This document shows, piece by piece, positions 1,772 through 14,613 of a DNA stretch of 15,587 bases. Each line of letters starts with the position of its first letter. The stretch's first letter is position 1. Under the pieces are notes generated by a model. That model searched no databases, was not told the DNA's origin, and saw only the letters and a list, made by a program, of their open reading frames with translations. The stretch comes from Leptolyngbya sp. SIO4C5 (GTDB lineage: Bacteria; Cyanobacteriota; Cyanobacteriia; Phormidesmidales; Phormidesmidaceae): assembly GCA_010671965.1 (NCBI GenBank), contig JAAHIC010000024.1, forward strand, positions 1-15,587. The letters run 5' to 3'. Both the position numbers and the translations under genes were made by a program.

Positions 1772-2911
1772 TCAGCCGCGAATCTGCACGGGCATAACCA
1801 GATAAGTCATTTTAGAGCCGCCCAGAGGAGACAGGACAGCAGGGCTGGTCGCGCTGTTGCACTGAAGCTGCACTTCTGAAGTATTTAAGACTTTGAGGCC
1901 ATCGAGCAGGTACCGCACGTTAAAAGCAATGTCTATGCTGTCGCCGGTAATTTGGGCCGCCACGTTTTCGCGACCGCTACCGACTTCCTGAGCTTCTACC
2001 GTCAGAGCGATCGCCTGCTCCTCGTTGTCGAGACTTAGTTTGACAATGTTGTTCTTTTGGTCGGCCAGTACGGCGATGCGCTCTAGGGCTAAGACAAACA
2101 GCTTGCGATCGACCGTCATTTGGCGGGAGAACTGGCGAGGAATCAGTTGGCGATAGTTGGGATATTGGCCTTCGAGCAGGCGGGTGGTGATTCGCTGCTG
2201 GCCTAGCTCAAAAATCACCTGGGTTGGATCAAAGCGAAGCGCAATGGCTTCGCTGCCCTGATGCATCTGCAAGACTCGCTCCAGTTCGCGCAGTGCTTTG
2301 CCGGGTACGGTCACTTCGATGGCCGTTTCCTCGACAGCCTTTTCTACAGGCGGCTCAGTCGTCTGGACTACCGCAAGACGGTGCCCATCTGTGGCAGCAA
2401 ACTCCAGCGCTGCTGTTTCGCTAAGCAGGTGTACGCCGGTCAGGACCTGTTTTGTCTCGTCAGTGCTGGCCGCAAAGAGGGCACCCCGCAGCCCTTCCAG
2501 CAATACTTCCGGCGAAAGTTCTGTCGCCTGCCCCGCTTCTACCTCAGGCAAATTGGGGTATTCATCGGCACTCAGTCCCCGCACCTGGTAGTGTCCGGAA
2601 GCGCAGGTCAGCGTGATCACCGTTTCGGCTTCAGTTTCTTCTAAAACAAGGTCTTCATTGGGCAGACGAGAAACAATATCCCCCAGCAGCTTGGCGGGCA
2701 AAGTTAGGCGACCTGAGCGTTCTACCTGAGCGGCAAAGCAGGTTTGTATGCCCAAACTTTCATCAAATCCCGTCAGCGCGACCTGCTGAATTTCTGCATC
2801 AGCCTTGAGCAAAACATTGCCTAAAATGGGCTTACTAGGGCGAGAAGGCACGGCCCGACTGACTAGGGAAAGATGGGTATTTAATTCGCTCTGAGAACAA
2901 ACGAACTTCAT
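1772..2911 (-). CDS. dnaN: DNA polymerase III subunit beta (sliding clamp)
   Basis: This encodes the ring-shaped clamp that tethers DNA polymerase III to DNA and recruits partner proteins carrying clamp-binding motifs. The 379-residue product has the normal length, with three repeats of the clamp fold. It starts MKFVCSQSELNTHLSLVSRAVPSRP, where the SRAVPSRP type of segment is typical of domain I, and contains ATDGHRLA in domain II. The C-terminus YLVMPVQIRG carries the conserved residues lining the partner-binding pocket. The ATG at 2911 has no clear ribosome site. The gene points away from the DnaA-box cluster beginning about 150 bp upstream, so it is transcribed with the replication fork and may be sensitive to DnaA binding there. 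No truncation or frameshift is seen. Confidence 0.97.
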   Translation of the reverse strand: MKFVCSQSELNTHLSLVSRAVPSRPSKPILGNVLLKADAEIQQVALTGFDESLGIQTCFAAQVERSGRLTLPAKLLGDIVSRLPNEDLVLEETEAETVITLTCASGHYQVRGLSADEYPNLPEVEAGQATELSPEVLLEGLRGALFAASTDETKQVLTGVHLLSETAALEFAATDGHRLAVVQTTEPPVEKAVEETAIEVTVPGKALRELERVLQMHQGSEAIALRFDPTQVIFELGQQRITTRLLEGQYPNYRQLIPRQFSRQMTVDRKLFVLALERIAVLADQKNNIVKLSLDNEEQAIALTVEAQEVGSGRENVAAQITGDSIDIAFNVRYLLDGLKVLNTSEVQLQCNSATSPAVLSPLGGSKMTYLVMPVQIRG

Positions 2912-3050
2912 GGATTTTGTGGGGTTTCAAGGCGTTTAATCTAGCGAACCAGGCAGCTTACTCAGGATTCTAAGGGCTGGATGCCAATCGTAACACCCTT
3001 GGCTAGAAGTTCAATCTGAAAAGTTTCCTCAGCCTTAAGATCTTCTCCTG

Positions 3051-3104
3051 GTTTAAAAGCTTTTTAAAAATAGTAGTAGTAGGGGCTGTGGAAAATGTGG
3101 AAAA
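3051..3104. other. Predicted DnaA-trio unwinding element of oriC
   Basis: Reading the plus strand: an AT-rich stretch (3051-3070, including TTTTTAAAAA), then TAGTAGTAGTAG at 3071-3082, then GGGC at 3083-3086, which with the last G of the repeat makes GGGGC, then two exact, abutting DnaA boxes in TGTGGAAAA orientation at 3087-3095 and 3096-3104. This is the order and polarity of the basal unwinding system described in Bacillus subtilis, where a DnaA filament grows from tandem boxes across a GC-rich spacer onto single-stranded repeats written 3'-GAT-5'. Four perfect repeats are seen here. The sequence is direct observation; the role as the opening site is inferred. Confidence 0.7.
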
Positions 3105-3149
3105 GATGGGGGATCGTCCATATAGAAATGCTTTAAGCGATCGCGGGCC

Positions 3150-3201
3150 TGTGGAAAACTTGTGGAAAACAAAACAGGTTTTCCACAAGCCTTGTGGATC
3201 C
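3150..3201. repeat. Palindromic DnaA-box cluster in oriC
   Basis: Three exact boxes and one degenerate box are interleaved as inverted repeats. CTTGTGGAAAAC at 3159-3170 is a perfect 12-bp complement of GTTTTCCACAAG at 3178-3189, with a 7-base spacer. The second arm also pairs with the next site, since CCACAAG at 3183-3189 and CTTGTGG at 3191-3197 are separated by one base. A further box (3150-3158) lies two bases upstream of the first arm. The arrangement would place DnaA monomers in opposite orientations and could extrude a hairpin. Confidence 0.75.
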
Positions 3202-3208
3202 TCAGTTT

Positions 3209-3281
3209 TTTTCCACTATAGAGTCTGATTTATCCCCTAACTTTCCACAGTTTTTCCACAGAGAAGAATTAGTTTTCCACA
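3209..3281 (+). other. Rightward DnaA-box array in oriC
   Basis: Four plus-strand boxes follow in the same orientation: TTTTCCACT at 3209-3217 (last base differs), CTTTCCACA at 3241-3249 (first base differs), and exact TTTTCCACA at 3252-3260 and 3273-3281. Start-to-start distances for the last three are 11 and 21 bases, close to one and two helical turns, so they should lie on one face of the helix. An AT-rich run follows at about 3294-3310 and could be a second opening region or the promoter of the rightward gene. Confidence 0.75.
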
Positions 3282-3411
3282 GGCTGAATCCGCAATTTTT
3301 TAAAATTCTTTACCTAATGTTAACTGAGCCAATCCCGAAATCTGTCTTAGAAAAGGCATAGCTATCCTGAAACCGCCATAGAATAGCGTCATCCTTTTTG
3401 GGTTGCAGCTA

Positions 3412-4653
3412 ATGATGTATTCTTCCTCTGCCGATCCGCTTCAGGCTGGCTGGTATGCAGCCTTGGGAGCGCTGCAGCGTATGGCACGTTTGCCCCAGCA
3501 GCCTCAGCAGCTTAGTCAAGACTGGCAGCAACTCCAGCAGCGTCCCGCCAGCTTTTTTGAGGATTTGAGGACAGAAGGTGCCTCAGTTGCTCACGCTTGG
3601 GAGCAGCGCTGGCCCCGTTTGGGGAGAGAGGCTTGTGGCGCTCAGGCTTTACCCAAATTTATTACCCGTCCCAGCGAGCAAACATTTTTGCCGCCCTACG
3701 ACCTGAAAAATACCCGACTTTTTGGCTTTGTCTTGGAGGGGTCATTGGCGAGGCTGCAAACGCTCTGCGATCGCTTCCTGAATCAGCCTGCTGACGGAGC
3801 GGTGTATTATCAGGCGGCGATTCCCTACGTTGTAGTTAGCTTTCAGCAGATGGGACATGTCAGCTCAGTCAATCTGCCTGATGCTGACCGAGGATATCTG
3901 TCTGAGCAAGAAGTAGCGATTTGGGTTTTGACCCTGGCAGGGAAGAAATATGGCCCCGTCTTTCAGGCAGAGCGCTTGGCCTGGTTTATCCCCTACATGT
4001 TTGCCAGCAATGAGCCGATTATTGCCTCTGGCCGAGAAGTCTGCGGCTTTCCTAAAGAATTAGGCAAATTTAAGCTCCCCGATCTGAACCATCTGACGGA
4101 GCCAGCTCACCTGCAGGCGCTAACCTGGCAGACTCTATCGGCCCAAACTCCAGCCCGCTGGGAAACGCTGATCGAAGTCAAAGCCGCTGAGATGGCTAAA
4201 CCCGTCAGGCACTGGCAGAGTGCTGTGGAGGCAGGCAGCCATTTGGCCGAACTGCTGTTGGGCGGTCAGCATCCTGTCGATGTACCCGGCTGGGAGCTGC
4301 CGTTTAATCTAGCTGACTATTTGCTGAAAGAGGAGGTGCCCTTTGTGCTGCTAAAGCAGTTTCGGGATGCCGTTGTAGGCGATCGCGCTTGCTATCAGGC
4401 CATTGTAGAAACGCCAGCACAGCTAACGGCCTTACACGCTGGCGGGCTGCTGGGCACAGAACAGCTGGGCTACAAGTTTGAGGTCGAAATCGGGCAGTTT
4501 GCTAGCCATCCGCTGGTGCAGGAACTTGGACTCACCGCACAGGCAGGCAGCCTGCAACCCCACGGGCCTGCCCTAATACCTGTCAAATTTGCTTTCTGGC
4601 TAGATTTCGACTTTCGCCTGCAGAACGGCAAGATTATCTGGCAGGCTCGCTAA
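3412..4653 (+). CDS. Acetoacetate decarboxylase-fold family protein
   Basis: The C-terminal 300 or so residues belong to the acetoacetate decarboxylase superfamily, whose members use a Schiff-base lysine for decarboxylation or related aldol/dehydration chemistry. The signature is visible: NEPIIASGREVCGFPKELG, with GRE at residues 207-209 and the presumed Schiff-base Lys215 six residues after the glutamate. Classical enzymes have a second lysine directly after it; here it is Glu216, so the true reaction may differ. The 413-residue product is longer than the usual 245-260 because of an N-terminal extension of about 90 residues, rich in Gln, with no signal peptide. I chose ATG 3412 (ATG 3415 is equally possible) over TTG 3403; no strong ribosome site marks either. 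It is followed after 117 bp by a desaturase-like flavoprotein on the same strand, suggesting a shared pathway. Substrate unknown. Confidence 0.8.
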   Translation: MMYSSSADPLQAGWYAALGALQRMARLPQQPQQLSQDWQQLQQRPASFFEDLRTEGASVAHAWEQRWPRLGREACGAQALPKFITRPSEQTFLPPYDLKNTRLFGFVLEGSLARLQTLCDRFLNQPADGAVYYQAAIPYVVVSFQQMGHVSSVNLPDADRGYLSEQEVAIWVLTLAGKKYGPVFQAERLAWFIPYMFASNEPIIASGREVCGFPKELGKFKLPDLNHLTEPAHLQALTWQTLSAQTPARWETLIEVKAAEMAKPVRHWQSAVEAGSHLAELLLGGQHPVDVPGWELPFNLADYLLKEEVPFVLLKQFRDAVVGDRACYQAIVETPAQLTALHAGGLLGTEQLGYKFEVEIGQFASHPLVQELGLTAQAGSLQPHGPALIPVKFAFWLDFDFRLQNGKIIWQAR

Positions 4654-7294: not shown

Positions 7295-10200
7295 ATGATT
7301 GTGCTGCCGGGCTACGATATTTCAGAGATTATCAATCGTGGAACTCGGATTGACGTTTACCGAGGGCTGCGCCAGGCCGATCAGCAGCCGATTGTGGCTA
7401 AAGTGCTTAAGGCTCAGTATCCCCAACTGCAGGATATTGCCAAGCTGCGGCACGAATATCAGCTAACTAATTCGCTAGCGATCGCCGGTGTTGTCAAGTC
7501 CTATACCCTGGAAAAATATCACAATGGCCTAGCCCTGATCCTAGAAGCGTTCGGTCATGAATCGCTGCGACAGGTGATGCAGCGTCAGCGGTTTACGCTG
7601 GCCGAATTTTTGGAGATTGCCATTCAGCTAGCGGACATCTTGGGGCAGCTCCATCAGCAGGGCATCATTCACAAAGATATCAAGCCAGCCAATATTATTT
7701 TCGATATTTCGGCGAAGACGGTCAAAATTACTGACTTTGGCATTTCTTCACTGCTGTCTCAGGAAACTCAGGCTCACAGCAGTCCCCGCGAGTTTCAGGG
7801 CACGCTGGCCTATATGTCACCGGAACAAACCGGGCGCATGAACCGCTCCATCGACTATCGCACCGATCTCTATTCCCTAGGTGTCAGCTTTTATGAAATT
7901 CTCACCGGACAGTTGCCGTTTGATGCCCGCGATCCAATGGAAATTGTTCATGCTCATATTGCCAAAACGCCGCTGCCGCCTCACGAGCTGCGGGCTGAGG
8001 TTCCGCCAGCTGTGGCAGCAATTATCTTGAAGCTGCTGGCGAAAACCGCAGAAAATCGCTATCAAAATGCTTTTGGTTTGAAAGCCGATCTAGAGCGCTG
8101 TCTAACAGATTGGCAACAGACAGGTCAAATAGAGCTTTTTACTTTGGGGCAGCAGGACTACTCTGGCAAGCTGCAAATTTCTCAAAAGCTCTATGGTCGT
8201 GAAGCTGAGGTGCAAACCTTACTGGCCGCTTTCGATCGCATCACTCAGACGACCCAGCAGGCGGAACTCGTTCTGGTCTCTGGCTACTCTGGCATTGGCA
8301 AGTCTGCTTTGGTGAACGAAATCTACAAGCCAGTGACACAGCAGCGGGGCTATTTTATTGCTGGCAAGTGCGATCCGCTGCAGCGCAATATGCCTTATGC
8401 CCCTTTTCGGCAGGCTTTTCAAGAACTGGTAGCGCAGCTTTTAGCCGAAGATATTTATCAGCTTTCCCACTGGCAGGCGCAGCTATTGTCAATGCTGGGT
8501 GAACAGGCCCAGGTGATTATTGATGTCATTCCGGATGTGGAGCTGATTATCGGCCCCCAAGCGCCCGTGCCAGAACTCAGCCCCGTTGAGGCCCAGACCC
8601 GCTTCAACCAGGTCTTCATAGAGTTTGTGCAGGCGTTTACCCAGGGCAGCCAGCCGCTAGTGCTGTTTATTGACGATTTACAGTGGGCGGATGCGACCTC
8701 ACTCAATCTGCTACAGCTTTTGGCAACGACGCTGCAGCCTGGACGCCTGTTGCTGATGGGAGCCTATCGCAATCATGAAGTTGAGGCGGGACATCCACTG
8801 CGAGAGGCGATCGCAACTATCCAGCAGCAGGGCGGCTCGATTCATCAGCTTGAAGTCGGCCCATTACTTGCCACCCAGATCGCCAATTTGCTAGCCGATA
8901 CGTTTGTAAATAATACGCCCACCGAAATCCAGCCCCTAGCCGCCCAGCTTTGCGCTCAAACCCAGGGAAATCCCTTTTTTTTGAGACAGCTCCTGCAATC
9001 TCTGGCCCAGCAACAGCACCTCAAATTTGACTTTGCCCAAGGGCGGTGGCAGTGGAATATTAGAGACATCAGAGCCTTAGGCCAAGTCGATTTAAGCGTT
9101 GCCGATCTGCTGGCGGCTAACATTGGACGCCTGCCGGCGGCGACTCAAACGGTGCTGAAGCTAGCCGCTTGCCTGGGAAATCAGTTTGACCTATCAACGC
9201 TGGCACTCATTTGTCAGCAATCGCCCCTGACGCTGGCCCAAAATCTTTGGCCCAGCCTACAGCAGGGACTGGTCTTGCCGCTCAGCGGTGAATATCAGCG
9301 TTCTTTAGCTCTAGAAGAAGAAGATTTAGAACAGTTTGCGCTCGAAGAGACGATTTGGGAATATCGCTTTCTCCACGACCGAGTCCATCAGACCGTTTAC
9401 CAATTGCTCTCAGCGCAGCAGCAACAGGAAACTCACCTTAAAATTGGCCGTCTTCTACTGCAGCAGACATCTCCCTGCAAGCAACAGGAGAAAATATTTG
9501 ATATTGTCAATCAGCTCAATATCGGCTCCGCCGCCATTGCCGACCTAGCGGAGCGTCTGACGCTAGCTCAGCTCAACCTAGCCGCTAACCACAAAGCCAA
9601 ACGAGCTGCTGCTTTTGAATCTGCCCGTCGCTATGCGCAAGTCGGAATTGAGCTCCTGGGAGAAACCCTTTGGCAAAGCCATTACAGTCTGGCCCTAGAT
9701 CTGCATATAGAAGCGGCAGAAACCGCCTATTTTGTAGGCGCTCTAGCCGATAGCCAGGATTGGATACAGCGAGTTTTAACGCACGGGGTGACGCTGATTG
9801 ACCGCGTCAAAGCCTATGAAATTCAAATTCGGGTTTTAATTGCTCAAAAGCAGCTTGTAGAAGCTGTGCAGCTGGGCTTATCTACCCTGAAGCTGCTGCA
9901 CATCAATCTGCCAGAAACGCCGACCGAAGCTCAGACAGGGCAGGCTCTGATGGCGACGGCTGAGCTGATTGCCCGCCAAACCATTCAGCGACTAGGGCGG
10001 CTGCCCCGGATGAGTGAACCCCGCGCTCTGGCAGCCACTCAAATTTTGGGCGCGATTTCAGCAGCGGCCTACGTTACCAACCCCCAGCTATTTGCGCTAC
10101 TCCAGACCCAAATTATTCAGCTCTCGGTTGAGTATGGTAATGCGCCGCAGTCTGTTTTAGCCTATTCCAACTACGGTTTACTGCTGTGCGGCCTGCTCAA

Positions 10201-12688
10201 TCAGATTGAAGCTGGTTATCAATTAGGGCAGGTTGTTTTAGACTTGCTGGCTCAGTTTCCGTCAAAGGAGCTATCCGCCAAAATTATCTTTATGGTGGCT
10301 AACTTCATCAATCCCTGGAAGTTTCATCTGCGGGAAAGTCTGCCCAATCTACGCTCTAGCATTGATACCGGCCTAGAGGCAGGTGATTTGGAATATGCCA
10401 CCTGGGGTTACTGGCGCGTTGTCCATTTTTCCTACCTGACAGGTGAACGGCTAAACGAGCTAGAGGCCCGGTTAGAAAACGCCTGCGCGGCTGTAAAGCG
10501 CCTAAAGCAGGAGGCCCAGCTCAATCTAATTCAGCTACAGGCTCAAGTGGTGGCGAATTGGCGGGGCAAGAGCGCTAATCCGGTACGCTTAGTCGGTGCT
10601 TACTACGATGAAGCGGCCTGCCTTAGTCAGTATGGGGCTACAGGTAATATTTTGGGCTTCTATGAACTGCATTTGCACCAGCTCATATTGCACTATGGGT
10701 TTAAGCAATACGAAGCAGCTCTAGAACATGCCGAGGCGGCAGCCAGCTATGTCATGGGCGTCCCTGCCGCTGTTGAGGTAGCGCTGCTATATTTCTATGA
10801 CTCACTGACACGGTTGGCGCTGCTGTCGGCTGAGATGGATCGGGAGCATGGGGACTGGCTCGGCCAAGTGGCGGCAAATCAGACGAAGCTCAGCCACTGG
10901 GCTAGCTATGCGCCGATAAACTACCAGCATAAATATGACCTCGTTGCTGCTGAACTGGCCAAGGTGAGGGGCGAGGTGCAGCAAGCAATGGCGCTGTACG
11001 ATGTGGCTATCGAGGGTGCCAAAAGAGCCGCCTATCTGCAGGAGGAAGCGCTTGCCTGTGAGCTGACTGGCGAATTCTATCTCAGCCTCAAGCATGACCG
11101 CATTGCTAGAGCCTATCTGCTAGACGCTTTCTACGCCTATCTTCGCTGGGATGCTAAGGCTAAGCTGACCGATTTGGAACAGCGCTACCCGATGTGGCTG
11201 AGCCAGTCTGCGCCAGAACCGCGATCGCTCTCTTCTAACGGCTTTACCACCACTACTACCTCTTCCAGCAGCAAGAGCCTGTCGTTAGACATGGTTTCTA
11301 TTGTCAAAGCTTCGCAAACGATTGCTGAAGAGATTGTCTTAGACAGTTTGCTAGCGCGTCTGATGCGAATTCTGATTGAAAATGCCGGGGCAGAAGTGGG
11401 CTACCTGATTTTGCACCAGGAGGATGACTGGACGATTCAGGCGGAGGGCCAGGTCAACTCATCTCAGGTTCAGGTGCTGCAGTCAATTGCTCTCACAGAT
11501 GAGCGGGCGCGATCGCGCTTGGCGATCGCCGTCATCAACTATGTCATTCGCACCCAGGAGAGCGTGGTTCTCAGCGATGCCGCCTCTGACAGCCGCTTTG
11601 CTAGCGATGTCTATATTCAGCAGCGGCAGCCCCAGTCTGTTTTGTGTGCCCCTTTGGCCTATCGGGGACGGCTCAGCGGCGTCATTTATTTAGAAAATAA
11701 CTTAGCCACAGATGCCTTCACCTTCGATCGCTTAGAAACCCTCAATCTGCTAGCGGCTCAGGCCGCCATTTCAATCGAAAATGCTTTGCTCTACCGCCAG
11801 CAAAAAAAGCTCAACCAAGATCTGGCTATTCTCAATCAGAATTTAACGGCGCTAAATCAGGCCTATGAGCGCTTTATTCCCCGGCAGTTTTTGCAATTGC
11901 TCAACAAGCGCAGCATCGTCGATGTCAAGCTAGGAGATCAGGTGCAGCGAGAAATGTCGGTGCTCTTTGCCGATATTCGGGCGTTTACGGCCATTTCTGA
12001 GCAGATGACACCCGCAGAAAATTTTCGCTTTATTAATACGTTTCTCTCACGCATGGAACCAGCGATCGCCGAGCATGGTGGCTTCGTCGATAAGTACATC
12101 GGCGACGCCATCATGGCCCTGTTTGACGGCACGGCTGACAATGCGCTGCGAGCCGCCATCACGATGCTGCGAATTTTAGCCGACTTCAACCAGCAGCAGC
12201 GCCTGAGAAACCAGCCCTCCATTCGCTTAGGCATTGGCATCAACACAGGTACGCTGATGCTAGGCACAGTCGGTGGTAACAGCCGCATGGACAGTACTGT
12301 AATTAGCGATGCGGTCAATGTCGCCTCCCGGATCGAACAGCTGACCAAAGAATATGGGGCGGCGCTGCTCATTTCGCAGCACACCTTCATGCAGCTAGAC
12401 GACCCCAATCGCTATGCTCTCCGACTGGTGGGTCATACTACCGTGCGCGGCAGAATCTCAGCCCTGAGCGTGTATGAAGTTTTCGATGCCGACCCTATTC
12501 AGGTCTTGCGGGCAAAAAACGCGACGCGCAGTTTATTTGAACAGTCTCTCGTGCAATATGCTGAAGCAAACTGGCAGACAGCGGCCCAGGGATTTGAGTC
12601 CTGTCTCCATCAAAACCCTGCCGATCAGATTGCGCAGCTTTATCTAGATCGCTGCCAGCAGCGACTAAACCATCAAGGCAACTCATAG
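7295..12688 (+). CDS. Multidomain Ser/Thr kinase - AAA ATPase - GAF - class III adenylate cyclase
   Basis: This 1797-residue signalling protein joins four modules. First, a Ser/Thr kinase domain (about 7-270) with Lys36, catalytic Asp128 in HKDIKPAN and Asp147 in DFG; its glycine loop is degenerate (NRGTRIDVYRG). Second, a predicted-ATPase domain (about 290-560) with Walker A GYSGIGKS at 330-337 and Walker B LVLFIDDLQWAD ending in D460-D461, followed by a long helical, TPR-like region to about 1320. Third, a GAF sensor domain (about 1333-1500) and a helical linker. Fourth, a cyclase domain (about 1554-1730) with metal aspartates D1560 and D1604, purine-selecting K1600 and T1668, and N1675/R1679. 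The Lys/Thr pair is that of class IIIb adenylate cyclases such as Anabaena CyaB1. A TPR-like tail ends the protein. Similar cyanobacterial kinases often end in a histidine kinase instead. No transmembrane span is evident. The GAF ligand is unknown. Confidence 0.92.
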   Translation: MIVLPGYDISEIINRGTRIDVYRGLRQADQQPIVAKVLKAQYPQLQDIAKLRHEYQLTNSLAIAGVVKSYTLEKYHNGLALILEAFGHESLRQVMQRQRFTLAEFLEIAIQLADILGQLHQQGIIHKDIKPANIIFDISAKTVKITDFGISSLLSQETQAHSSPREFQGTLAYMSPEQTGRMNRSIDYRTDLYSLGVSFYEILTGQLPFDARDPMEIVHAHIAKTPLPPHELRAEVPPAVAAIILKLLAKTAENRYQNAFGLKADLERCLTDWQQTGQIELFTLGQQDYSGKLQISQKLYGREAEVQTLLAAFDRITQTTQQAELVLVSGYSGIGKSALVNEIYKPVTQQRGYFIAGKCDPLQRNMPYAPFRQAFQELVAQLLAEDIYQLSHWQAQLLSMLGEQAQVIIDVIPDVELIIGPQAPVPELSPVEAQTRFNQVFIEFVQAFTQGSQPLVLFIDDLQWADATSLNLLQLLATTLQPGRLLLMGAYRNHEVEAGHPLREAIATIQQQGGSIHQLEVGPLLATQIANLLADTFVNNTPTEIQPLAAQLCAQTQGNPFFLRQLLQSLAQQQHLKFDFAQGRWQWNIRDIRALGQVDLSVADLLAANIGRLPAATQTVLKLAACLGNQFDLSTLALICQQSPLTLAQNLWPSLQQGLVLPLSGEYQRSLALEEEDLEQFALEETIWEYRFLHDRVHQTVYQLLSAQQQQETHLKIGRLLLQQTSPCKQQEKIFDIVNQLNIGSAAIADLAERLTLAQLNLAANHKAKRAAAFESARRYAQVGIELLGETLWQSHYSLALDLHIEAAETAYFVGALADSQDWIQRVLTHGVTLIDRVKAYEIQIRVLIAQKQLVEAVQLGLSTLKLLHINLPETPTEAQTGQALMATAELIARQTIQRLGRLPRMSEPRALAATQILGAISAAAYVTNPQLFALLQTQIIQLSVEYGNAPQSVLAYSNYGLLLCGLLNQIEAGYQLGQVVLDLLAQFPSKELSAKIIFMVANFINPWKFHLRESLPNLRSSIDTGLEAGDLEYATWGYWRVVHFSYLTGERLNELEARLENACAAVKRLKQEAQLNLIQLQAQVVANWRGKSANPVRLVGAYYDEAACLSQYGATGNILGFYELHLHQLILHYGFKQYEAALEHAEAAASYVMGVPAAVEVALLYFYDSLTRLALLSAEMDREHGDWLGQVAANQTKLSHWASYAPINYQHKYDLVAAELAKVRGEVQQAMALYDVAIEGAKRAAYLQEEALACELTGEFYLSLKHDRIARAYLLDAFYAYLRWDAKAKLTDLEQRYPMWLSQSAPEPRSLSSNGFTTTTTSSSSKSLSLDMVSIVKASQTIAEEIVLDSLLARLMRILIENAGAEVGYLILHQEDDWTIQAEGQVNSSQVQVLQSIALTDERARSRLAIAVINYVIRTQESVVLSDAASDSRFASDVYIQQRQPQSVLCAPLAYRGRLSGVIYLENNLATDAFTFDRLETLNLLAAQAAISIENALLYRQQKKLNQDLAILNQNLTALNQAYERFIPRQFLQLLNKRSIVDVKLGDQVQREMSVLFADIRAFTAISEQMTPAENFRFINTFLSRMEPAIAEHGGFVDKYIGDAIMALFDGTADNALRAAITMLRILADFNQQQRLRNQPSIRLGIGINTGTLMLGTVGGNSRMDSTVISDAVNVASRIEQLTKEYGAALLISQHTFMQLDDPNRYALRLVGHTTVRGRISALSVYEVFDADPIQVLRAKNATRSLFEQSLVQYAEANWQTAAQGFESCLHQNPADQIAQLYLDRCQQRLNHQGNS

Positions 12689-12924
12689 ATTCAGCTAAGG
12701 CCCTTATACTGATAGGCTAAAGTTCATAAAATGAGCTATCGGGTCCAGGAATCAGTAGATCGATGATTTTGTCTGAATACACATTGTCGATTCTGCGAGG
12801 AACTGATAACTTACTTAACAATTCATTGCGAATATTTCGCTGGGCTAGATATCTTGCTAAGTTCTAGGCAAACACCTAGCGGGTGCCCGAACGCTCCAAT
12901 TGCAACGCAGGAATACGGATAACG
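12689..12924. other. Intergenic region upstream of the two-gene operon
   Basis: This 236-bp gap separates the kinase-cyclase stop from the chosen start of the next gene and presumably carries that operon's promoter. The only structure I see is a short hairpin, CTAGG at 12864-12868 with CCTAG at 12875-12879 around a six-base loop. There is no T-run, so it is not a convincing terminator. No good -35/-10 pair stands out and I find no small ORF with a ribosome site. Confidence 0.3.
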
Positions 12925-13986
12925 ATGACTCAGCGCGATAGCTCCAAGGCTCCTACCTTAGATACTCCAGAAATGCCCCCCTCGGCGGCGATGGGTGAGA
13001 TGGATGCGGCTAATCTGGTCGATGCCTATGCCGACGATCTGATGGGCGATCTCTTTGGTGATGTCGATCGCATTTTGGAGGGAGAAACTGAGCTAGCAGA
13101 TGACTATGCTGAGCCGGATGCGGAAACGACCTACGCCAATGAAGCGTTTTCAGGCGCTATTGTGCCGATTGGTGCTGGCCTAAAGCCCGCTCCCCCAACT
13201 CTGGCTTTCTCAGCGCTGTCACCTCCTGTAGCGGCTGCCTCCGCTGAAGCCGCTCCACCTCGCCGCTGGTTTGGTCGCCCTTTCGATCGCTTCTTTTTAG
13301 GCGCGGCCTGCATGTCTCTGGTGTTTACCCTGCTGTTGTGGCTGGTAGATAGCCAATACCGCAGCCGCCAGGGCACTGTCGCGCCTGAACTAGAGCTCAC
13401 CCCTGCTGAACTGCAAGCAGAAGCCGATCGCCAGTATTTAGAGTATTTAGAGCGATCGCTCAACGTGATTGAGCAACAGCAGGCTCAGGTCGCCACAGCC
13501 CCCAATGCGGCTCAGCTTCCCCCGGTCGCTCTGACGCCGCCGCCACCGGCAGGAACGCTGCCTCCCCTACCTGGTAGTGCTGCCACCTCGCCCCGGCCTA
13601 GCGTAATCGAGCGGGTCTACGTGCCGGTTTATCAACCACCCCAGACCTTGGCGACGGCACCCACAGTAACTCCTTTGCCACCGCGGCCAGCGCCAGCAGC
13701 CCCCGCTTCCCCCACTGCGCCGCCAGCTCCCGCGTCGCCAGCCGCTAGGCTGCCCCAGCCCGCTCAGACGGCCGCCGCTCCAGCCGTGACCCATCTGCTC
13801 GTCGGAATTTTAGAACTGGGCGATCGCTCTGCCGCTTTGTTTGAAATAGACGGAGCGCCCCAGCGCGTTTATTTGGGGCAGCCTATTGGCTCTAGCGGTT
13901 GGACCCTAGTGTCTGTAGCCAATCAAGAGGCGGTAATCCGTCGCAATGGGGATGTGCGTTCGGTACTCGTAGGGCAAAAATTTTAA
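12925..13986 (+). CDS. Proline-rich single-span membrane protein with GspC/PilP-like C-terminal domain
   Basis: I do not recognise a named family for this 353-residue protein. It has an acidic, probably cytoplasmic N-terminus (about 1-115), a transmembrane helix (about 123-143, FFLGAACMSLVFTLLLWLV), a short charged helical stretch (about 155-190), a long Pro/Ala-rich linker (about 195-285) and a compact C-terminal domain (about 289-353). The last, with VGILELGDRSAALFEIDG, VYLGQPI and VLVGQKF, resembles the beta-rich domain of type II secretion GspC and type IV pilus PilP, which bridge the inner membrane machine to the secretin. That comparison rests on the pattern only. I chose ATG 12925 (CAGGAA at 12908-12913) over an in-frame GTG at 12883. 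The next gene starts 15 bp after its stop, so the two form an operon. A periplasm-facing envelope role is inferred. Confidence 0.7.
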   Translation: MTQRDSSKAPTLDTPEMPPSAAMGEMDAANLVDAYADDLMGDLFGDVDRILEGETELADDYAEPDAETTYANEAFSGAIVPIGAGLKPAPPTLAFSALSPPVAAASAEAAPPRRWFGRPFDRFFLGAACMSLVFTLLLWLVDSQYRSRQGTVAPELELTPAELQAEADRQYLEYLERSLNVIEQQQAQVATAPNAAQLPPVALTPPPPAGTLPPLPGSAATSPRPSVIERVYVPVYQPPQTLATAPTVTPLPPRPAPAAPASPTAPPAPASPAARLPQPAQTAAAPAVTHLLVGILELGDRSAALFEIDGAPQRVYLGQPIGSSGWTLVSVANQEAVIRRNGDVRSVLVGQKF

Positions 13987-14001: not shown

Positions 14002-14613
14002 ATGGGTCTATTTGAAGATCTCAGCCGATTTTTAGAAACGCGGCTGGATGAGTTTCTGCGAGCGCATCCCCACCTAGAGCTAATGGCGCTGGAAGAGCAG
14101 CTCCGTGGGCAGGAAGAAGACGCGATCAATTTACTGGGCGATCTGAAGCGGCGCGAGAAGCAGCTAGAAGACAGTATTCTCTCGACGGCCCAGGAAATTC
14201 AGCGCTGGCACGAACGGGTCAAGAAAGCAGAATCAGCCAATCGCCAAGATCTAGGCCGCGCTGCCCAAGAGCGGGAGGCCTCCCTATTGCGCCAGGGAAA
14301 TCATCTCTGGGGGCAGATGAAGGGCACCAAAGAGCGGATTGAACAGACCCGTGAACTGCAGCGACAGGTGCACGAGAAACGGCGAGAGCTAAAGGTGAAA
14401 ATTGCGCAAGCGGAAGCCGATCGCGCTGCTCAGCGAGCTAAAGCAACTGCTACCGCCGCCAAAGATCCGGCTGCCGCTGCTTGGGGAAATAAAGGCTGGA
14501 ATCAAAGCCCCTACACTACTTTTGATCGCCCCGTTGATCCGCTAGAAGAAACCTTTCAGCGCTGGGAAACGGAAGAAGAATTAGAAGACCTTAAGCGCCA
14601 GATGGGGCGGTAA
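14002..14613 (+). CDS. PspA-like coiled-coil protein, cyanobacterial family (possibly TIGR04376)
   Basis: This 203-residue protein is charged and predicted to be mostly coiled coil from about residue 20 to 150, with no signal peptide or transmembrane span. The start MGLFEDLSRFLETRLDEFL and the internal pattern EIQRWHERVKKAESANRQDLGRAA recall PspA/IM30 proteins (an amphipathic first helix, then REDLAR-like motifs), but it is shorter and the C-terminal 50 residues are polar and low in complexity. I recall a cyanobacteria-specific family TIGR04376 of this form but cannot verify it. AGGAA at 13991-13995, six bases before the ATG, marks the start. It follows the GspC/PilP-like gene by 15 bp, suggesting translation from one mRNA and a joint envelope-related role. 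Function unknown. Confidence 0.75.
   Translation: MGLFEDLSRFLETRLDEFLRAHPHLELMALEEQLRGQEEDAINLLGDLKRREKQLEDSILSTAQEIQRWHERVKKAESANRQDLGRAAQEREASLLRQGNHLWGQMKGTKERIEQTRELQRQVHEKRRELKVKIAQAEADRAAQRAKATATAAKDPAAAAWGNKGWNQSPYTTFDRPVDPLEETFQRWETEEELEDLKRQMGR

Follow-up and report, generated by a model that had tools for sequence, protein, structure and literature searches.

The closest described counterparts of the locus analysed here are bacterial origins with a basal unwinding system (BUS), defined as at least three DnaA-trios, with a middle A and the consensus 3'-GAT-5', beside a DnaA box (PMC8287927), the strand that bears the trios running on 5' of the TGTGGA strand of the box (PMC8287927, PMC8235120). 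In Bacillus subtilis the BUS is described as DnaA-boxes 6/7, a GC spacer and DnaA-trios (PMC6669920, PMC8287927, PMC10721633), and two residues of the B. subtilis initiator have been assigned their roles, Ile190 in binding single-stranded DNA and Arg264 as the arginine finger (PMC8287927, PMC10721633). Within the cyanobacteria, DnaA of Synechococcus elongatus separated its cognate scaffold in vitro in a reaction for which both boxes and trios were needed (PMC8287927). In the same phylum dnaA is essential in S. elongatus, dispensable in Nostoc 7120, Synechocystis 6803 and Synechococcus 7002, and missing from some free-living cyanobacteria (PMC7198777).

Here we analyse a stretch of 15,587 nucleotides from the draft genome of Leptolyngbya sp. 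SIO4C5 (the window), in which a block at 3051-3104 very probably marks, to judge from its sequence, the chromosome opening site of this cyanobacterium. We consider it highly likely that the block is the BUS of oriC, at which DnaA is loaded and the duplex opened.

Organization of the block and its box array

The relevant features are listed below, with offsets counted from the end of the trios.

1772-2911, minus strand: dnaN, sliding clamp (PF00712, PF02767, PF02768)
3051-3070, plus strand: AT-rich tract, GTTTAAAAGCTTTTTAAAAA, lying past the trios and predicted to open after them
3071-3082, plus strand: four DnaA-trios, TAGTAGTAGTAG, each 5'-TAG-3' (3'-GAT-5'), the predicted single-stranded target of DnaA
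3083-3086, plus strand: GC spacer GGGC, 4 nt, between the trios and box 1
3087-3095, minus strand: DnaA box 1, trio-proximal, exact, TGTGGAAAA on the plus and TTTTCCACA on the minus strand, offset 4
3096-3104, minus strand: DnaA box 2, exact, abutting box 1, TGTGGAAAA on the plus strand, offset 13
3150-3158, minus strand: DnaA box 3, offset 67, a modal place in relatives
3161-3169, minus strand: DnaA box 4, offset 78, 2-bp gap to box 3
3179-3187, plus strand: DnaA box 5, offset 96, where the orientation flips
3209-3217, plus strand: DnaA box 6, TTTTCCACT, one mismatch, offset 126, a place filled in a minority of relatives
3241-3249, plus strand: DnaA box 7, CTTTCCACA, one mismatch, offset 158, a place filled in a minority of relatives
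3252-3260, plus strand: DnaA box 8, offset 169
3273-3281, plus strand: DnaA box 9, far end of the array, offset 190

A sequence-only reading of this DNA had described an AT-rich tract, four perfect TAG repeats and two abutting exact DnaA boxes in that order, and the letters of the plus strand bear this out. It had also given the spacer as GGGGC; the first G of this belongs to the fourth TAG, leaving the 4-nt GGGC. The order and polarity, which it had likened to those of B. subtilis, equal those of the B. subtilis BUS as described (PMC8287927, PMC8235120, PMC10721633). Four perfect trios are present at 3071-3082 where at least three are required, and the trio strand runs on 5' of the TGTGGA strand of the box. 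A BUS is expected to have a GC-rich spacing of about 4 bp to the proximal box and 10-13 bp to the more conserved box; these distances are 4 and 13 bp here. Tandem co-oriented boxes, the commonest though optional arrangement, occupy 3087-3095 and 3096-3104, and an AT-rich element lies past the trios both in the window sequence and in the AT profile of its relatives.

Because dnaN starts at 2911 on the minus strand, the trio side of the block faces the gene, with the TAG repeats about 160 bp upstream of it. No second copy of TAGTAGTAG occurs on either strand of the 15.6-kb window. The nine boxes extend over about 200 bp, the first four in one orientation and the remaining five in the opposite one. 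The 5.6-Mb draft genome has 53 exact copies of TTTTCCACA, seven of which fall within the 195 bp from 3087 to 3281; the two further boxes there carry one mismatch each, so that the box cluster beside dnaN or dnaA that is expected of an oriC is found here with dnaN adjacent.

One DnaA gene was found in the window genome, on a contig other than that of the block. The encoded protein is complete: its residues 9-459 of 465 align with B. subtilis DnaA as it stands in the cryo-EM BUS complex 8btg (E 2.7e-130), and by a count on the alignment its I207 and R281 fall opposite I190 and R264 of 8btg. The genome that carries the block thus encodes a DnaA in which both residues needed for a BUS, the Ile that binds ssDNA and the arginine finger, are present. 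With every sequence-level feature tested being present, the block would be expected to work like a BUS.

Other features of the window and its genome may be recorded here. On the far side of the origin, the frame at 3403-4653 (plus strand) has a weak acetoacetate decarboxylase-like match (PF06314, 31.8 bits) confined to residues 182-229. The 1797-aa protein encoded at 7295-12688 (plus strand) combines Ser/Thr kinase, AAA_16 ATPase, GAF and guanylate/adenylate cyclase domains in one chain, and the adjacent plus-strand frames at 12883-13986 and 14002-14613 (367 and 203 aa) have no Pfam match at 0.001. A 19.6-kb contig of the same genome (locus L264, contig C1, 6400-8200) shows by eye about six iteron-like repeats, CGCTGAATTGGTACACAT, with four exact DnaA boxes around them; this is perhaps a plasmid replication origin.

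Conservation in register upstream of dnaN

For the comparison with relatives we took the best 80 dnaN loci by match to the window DnaN, of which 79 were used (L049, with no upstream DNA, was left out), making 80 regions with the window, each of up to 700 bp of upstream DNA (196 bp only in L057). A strict block, comprising a trio with at most one mismatch, a box with at most two and a spacer of 0-16 bp, occurs in 65 of these 80 best-match regions, as against 0/80 on the opposite strand and a mean of 0.05/80 in dinucleotide shuffles; seven other trinucleotides placed in the trio slot gave 0 or 1 of 80 in the same test. The spacer of the 65 strict matches is 4 bp in 31, 13 bp in 30, 16 bp in two, and 12 and 7 bp in one each, and so either 4 or 13 bp in 61. 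Since 13 is 4 plus one 9-bp degenerate box, the distance between trios and box pair is nearly constant. A looser test (total mismatch at most 3; spacers of 4, 5 or 13 bp) recovers the block in 69/80 regions, with 5/80 on the opposite strand and 0.0 in shuffles. Among the 15 regions that miss the strict block, several (L036 and L044 are examples) have trios that are visibly degenerate yet in register.

Under a still looser match, which takes in 74 of the 80 best-match regions, the last ten trio positions hold 1.4-2.0 bits per column and the box columns mostly 0.8-2.0 bits (no more than 0.4 in the final column of box 1), as against 0.0-0.8 in the flanks. The expectation that TAG repeats, spacer and boxes are kept as a unit upstream of dnaN in relatives is therefore confirmed, with flanks far less conserved, and the repeats neither vary freely nor shift relative to the boxes in the regions with the strict block.

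The rest of the array is near-fixed in its spacing. In 69 of the 80 best-match regions, reverse boxes with at most one mismatch recur at offsets 4, 13, 66-68 and 77-79, and forward boxes at 95-97, 124-127, 146, 157-158, 167-170 and 188-191, the places at 124-127, 146 and 157-158 being occupied in a minority of regions. The place of box 1 (offset 4) is within one mismatch in 45 of the 69 and that of box 2 (offset 13) in 58, and of the 61 best-match regions with an exact forward box, 54 have the last such box at a distance of 188-192 bp from the end of the trios. The same offsets recur in 39 block loci collected by pattern from several families, a set in which offset 4 is partly imposed by anchoring on the block pattern.

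Predicted path of opening

By analogy with B. subtilis, Helicobacter pylori and S. elongatus, we infer that two DnaA molecules on the abutting double-stranded boxes at 3087-3104 would form a platform from which further DnaA would be passed over the 4-bp GC spacer to the plus strand, one molecule per TAG trio from 3082 to 3071. The growing filament would stretch the plus strand, opening of the duplex would proceed from 3071-3082 to the AT tract at 3051-3070, where the helicase would be loaded. The seven other boxes, at 3150-3281, would aid DnaA assembly from their near-fixed array.

The origin could instead open at the AT-rich stretch 3294-3323 beyond the array, with the TAG repeats playing no part as entry point. 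In nearest-neighbour stability this stretch is as low as 3052-3081, and the AT tract named as the alternative, 3294-3310, melts just as easily, so that stability does not decide; the melting profile, tried as judge between the two sides, finds both equally unstable and returns no verdict. AT content to the right of the last forward box is raised in relatives too (0.45-0.71 over 50 bp; 0.55-0.71 from 10 to 50 bp), but this enrichment is weaker than that on the trio side, where the AT fraction reaches 0.81-0.89 at -30 to -16 from the trio end (73-74 regions, window included) against an upstream-region mean of 0.54. Moreover, the window carries no TAG trio beside the last forward box, and on the opposite strand the strict test for trios gave 0/80 and the looser one 5/80. 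Opening beyond the array is accordingly quite improbable in our judgement. Conservation, polarity and AT profile favour opening at 3050-3082, as the sequence-only reading had predicted.

Spread through Cyanobacteriia and independence from dnaN

Searching 339 Cyanobacteriia genomes with the pattern TAGTAGTAGRGSCTGTGGAAA at up to two mismatches, we found the block in 189 of them (one match in 184, two in five); the reversed pattern, used as control, gave 11 matches in 10 of the 339. Of the 50 genomes in the window's own family, 37, among them the window genome, carry the block and 13 do not. These counts are lower bounds, because the pattern misses divergent trios as well as diverged boxes, through which family f20 is probably under-counted.

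The block does not follow dnaN. It is intact away from that gene in six f19 genomes (G083, G173, G241, G274, G343 and G350) and in G344, where dnaN lies on another contig or from 14 kb to more than 1 Mb away, and in G027 the block with its full array adjoins dnaA while dnaN is elsewhere. In the window's family the distance between the block and a match to DnaA domain IV is about 0.4-0.6 kb in at least 15 genomes. The usual statement for cyanobacteria is that dnaA and dnaN lie apart; one genome (G302, C1:2631510-2633624) has dnaA, block and dnaN in that order, and in this it resembles B. subtilis, in which the gene order is dnaA-origin-dnaN.

The persistence of the block where dnaN lies elsewhere makes it independent of that gene and argues against its being conserved as part of a dnaN leader or promoter. 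Trinucleotide repeats arise by slippage and those of the window lie 160 bp upstream of dnaN, as would suit a chance microsatellite or a piece of the dnaN leader or promoter. Such origins for the repeats are barely credible given the fixed register in relatives, the near absence of other trinucleotides from the trio slot, and the retention of the block in register in genomes where dnaN has moved away.

Absence of the block from lineages that lose dnaA

Twelve of the 339 genomes are without a match to the DnaA DNA-binding domain, and at up to two mismatches none of the 12 has the block, nor do 138 of the 327 dnaA-bearing genomes. Loss of dnaA is observed in six families (f6, f7, f11, f12, f13 and f23; 47 of the 339 genomes), the losses in f11 being taken from a separate survey that yielded 17 dnaA-less Cyanobacteriia. 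The 35 dnaA-bearing genomes of these six families are likewise without the block at up to two mismatches, and it is present in 189 of the 292 genomes of the remaining families.

A further set of 79 genomes was picked by us, not at random, to include the 17 dnaA-less Cyanobacteriia. Three had no dnaN match (two of them dnaA-less), and the other 76, 15 without and 61 with dnaA, were read over up to 800 bp upstream of dnaN (168 bp only in G101, 692 in G179). At total mismatches of at most 2, 3 and 4, the block is found in 0, 0 and 1 of the 15 dnaA-less regions and in 18, 19 and 20 of the 61 dnaA-bearing ones. The published permissive definition of trios was applied in simplified form, as three NAN triplets no more than 16 bp from a box with at most two mismatches on either strand. 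It returned 13 of the 15 dnaA-less regions against a mean of 11.4/15 in shuffles, and so, at two box mismatches, fails to tell dnaA-less regions from shuffled ones; with boxes held to one mismatch it gave 0/15 dnaA-less and 32/61 dnaA-bearing regions. The strict block is the more specific of the two, and the TAG block was chosen for the phylogeny because the permissive rule is too unspecific.

Boxes and array persist in some genomes without TAG trios. Co-oriented exact box pairs, 0-25 bp apart, occur in 2 of the 17 dnaA-less genomes versus 48 of 49 dnaA-bearing genomes that were without the block in earlier scans (reversed-pattern control, 2 matches across the 66 genomes). One dnaA-less genome, G103, has three exact copies of TTTTCCACA in tandem, 21 bp apart, on a second contig (C2:18150-18200). 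A template of ten array positions was compared with 44 block-less sequences of dnaA-bearing genomes, consisting of dnaN sides together with the dnaA sides of G058 and G115; three are dnaN sides of genomes whose block lies elsewhere (G027, G083 and G274). At least three positions are retained in 13 of the 44, whereas 228 mononucleotide shuffles never gave more than two, and the dnaA-less regions score 0 (12 regions) or 1 (three regions). The trio slot of the 13 array-keeping sequences is not TAG-like, and four NAN triplets stand there in G024 only; with the slot of G166 outside the fetched DNA and a fit that tolerates 1 bp either way, loss of trios here means loss of the TAG block, and a divergent trio is possible in places. 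Genus g57 of family f15 (G179 and G283) keeps dnaA and 5 and 6 of the ten array positions with TAG trios absent, and is a candidate for trio loss outside the families with observed dnaA loss.

These data bear on whether the block might be a vestige or a regulatory DnaA site in a chromosome replicated without DnaA, as in Nostoc 7120 or Synechocystis 6803. Several cyanobacteria can dispense with DnaA (PMC7198777), and the partial retention of the array in 13 of 44 block-less sequences means that boxes alone are no proof of an active origin. Coarse GC-skew sampling at the block in four single-contig genomes (10 x 20 kb in each) also shows a sign change in only one, G302, and none in G011, G280 and G408; the window genome is a draft of 1203 contigs. 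On the other side, conservation is among the highest in the trio columns, for which binding at a promoter alone would have no use, and families that lost dnaA are without the block. We therefore regard a vestigial or regulatory block, in an organism that replicates without DnaA, as improbable.

Order of loss

The order in which block and gene disappear was examined on a DnaN tree of 77 rows, a quick search on a single gene with long branches. Unordered parsimony on this tree counts seven changes of the block and seven of dnaA. Read as losses only, 7 of 7 dnaA losses fall where the block had already gone, on branches that amount to 36% of the eligible length (p 0.0008), and in the unordered reconstruction 6 of 6 do so (55% of eligible length; p 0.027), p-values that are rough given the single-gene quick tree, its long branches and the author-chosen genomes. 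The unordered reconstruction is itself implausible, requiring that the block be regained four times and dnaA once. In an independent-pairs test on the same tree, pairs that differ in dnaA rarely differ in the block (mean 0.1 of 5, starred branches), because the dnaA-bearing sister is already without it; the result fits prior loss of the block and carries no significance alone.

The absence of the block from dnaA-less genomes and from their sampled relatives suggests that the block decays before the gene. Tentatively, and with not quite even confidence, we propose that DnaA-dependent replication can be recognised by the TAG block, and that decay takes the trios and GC spacer first, while array spacing and dnaA may persist, then the boxes and finally dnaA. 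Since all dnaA losses in the DnaN tree, six or seven, lie in lineages already without the block, the block would on this proposal predict from sequence which cyanobacteria need dnaA. The losses on the tree agree with the published dispensability experiments (PMC7198777), families f6, f7 and f13 perhaps belonging to the groups studied there. If the opening element decays ahead of the gene, sequence alone could rank species by their dependence on DnaA and name the strains to test. The question bears on how an essential initiator becomes dispensable in cyanobacteria.

Comparison with described origins

Cyanobacterial origins described from DoriC and Ori-Finder (PMC6323995, PMC4674748, PMC10225481) share with the window a cluster of TTTTCCACA boxes, usually by dnaN, and DoriC 10 annotates trio-like sequences as well (same sources); the descriptions in those sources, as far as they were available to us, are without a class-wide TAG block, a fixed array geometry or a link between trios and loss of dnaA. 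In the listed titles and abstract openings of the openly licensed literature, neither class-wide conservation of trios in cyanobacteria nor the order of loss appeared, and we did not find a precedent in print for the class-wide conservation of the TAG block or for loss of trios ahead of dnaA. A clean cyanobacterial example, which the sequence-only reading had valued as informative, is not new in kind, since S. elongatus DnaA has already been shown to unwind its own trio scaffold (PMC8287927). That oriC has the same element in a different organism of the same phylum, compared here by description rather than by letters (PMC8287927).

The H. pylori oriC is alike in that trio sequence and polarity matter for opening, which was mapped there by permanganate and P1 nuclease, and differs in its bipartite origin and other box sequence (PMC8235120). 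From the B. subtilis BUS the window departs in its TTTTCCACA boxes that abut without a gap, in its four perfect TAG trios, and in the position of dnaA on another contig. The two are alike in their 3'-GAT-5' trios, their polarity, the AT tract past the trios and the two co-oriented boxes, and in a 4-bp GC spacer, 5'-GGCC-3' in B. subtilis (PMC8235120) and GGGC here. They also agree in the distal box, which in relatives of the window is more often near-exact than the proximal one (58 versus 45 of 69).
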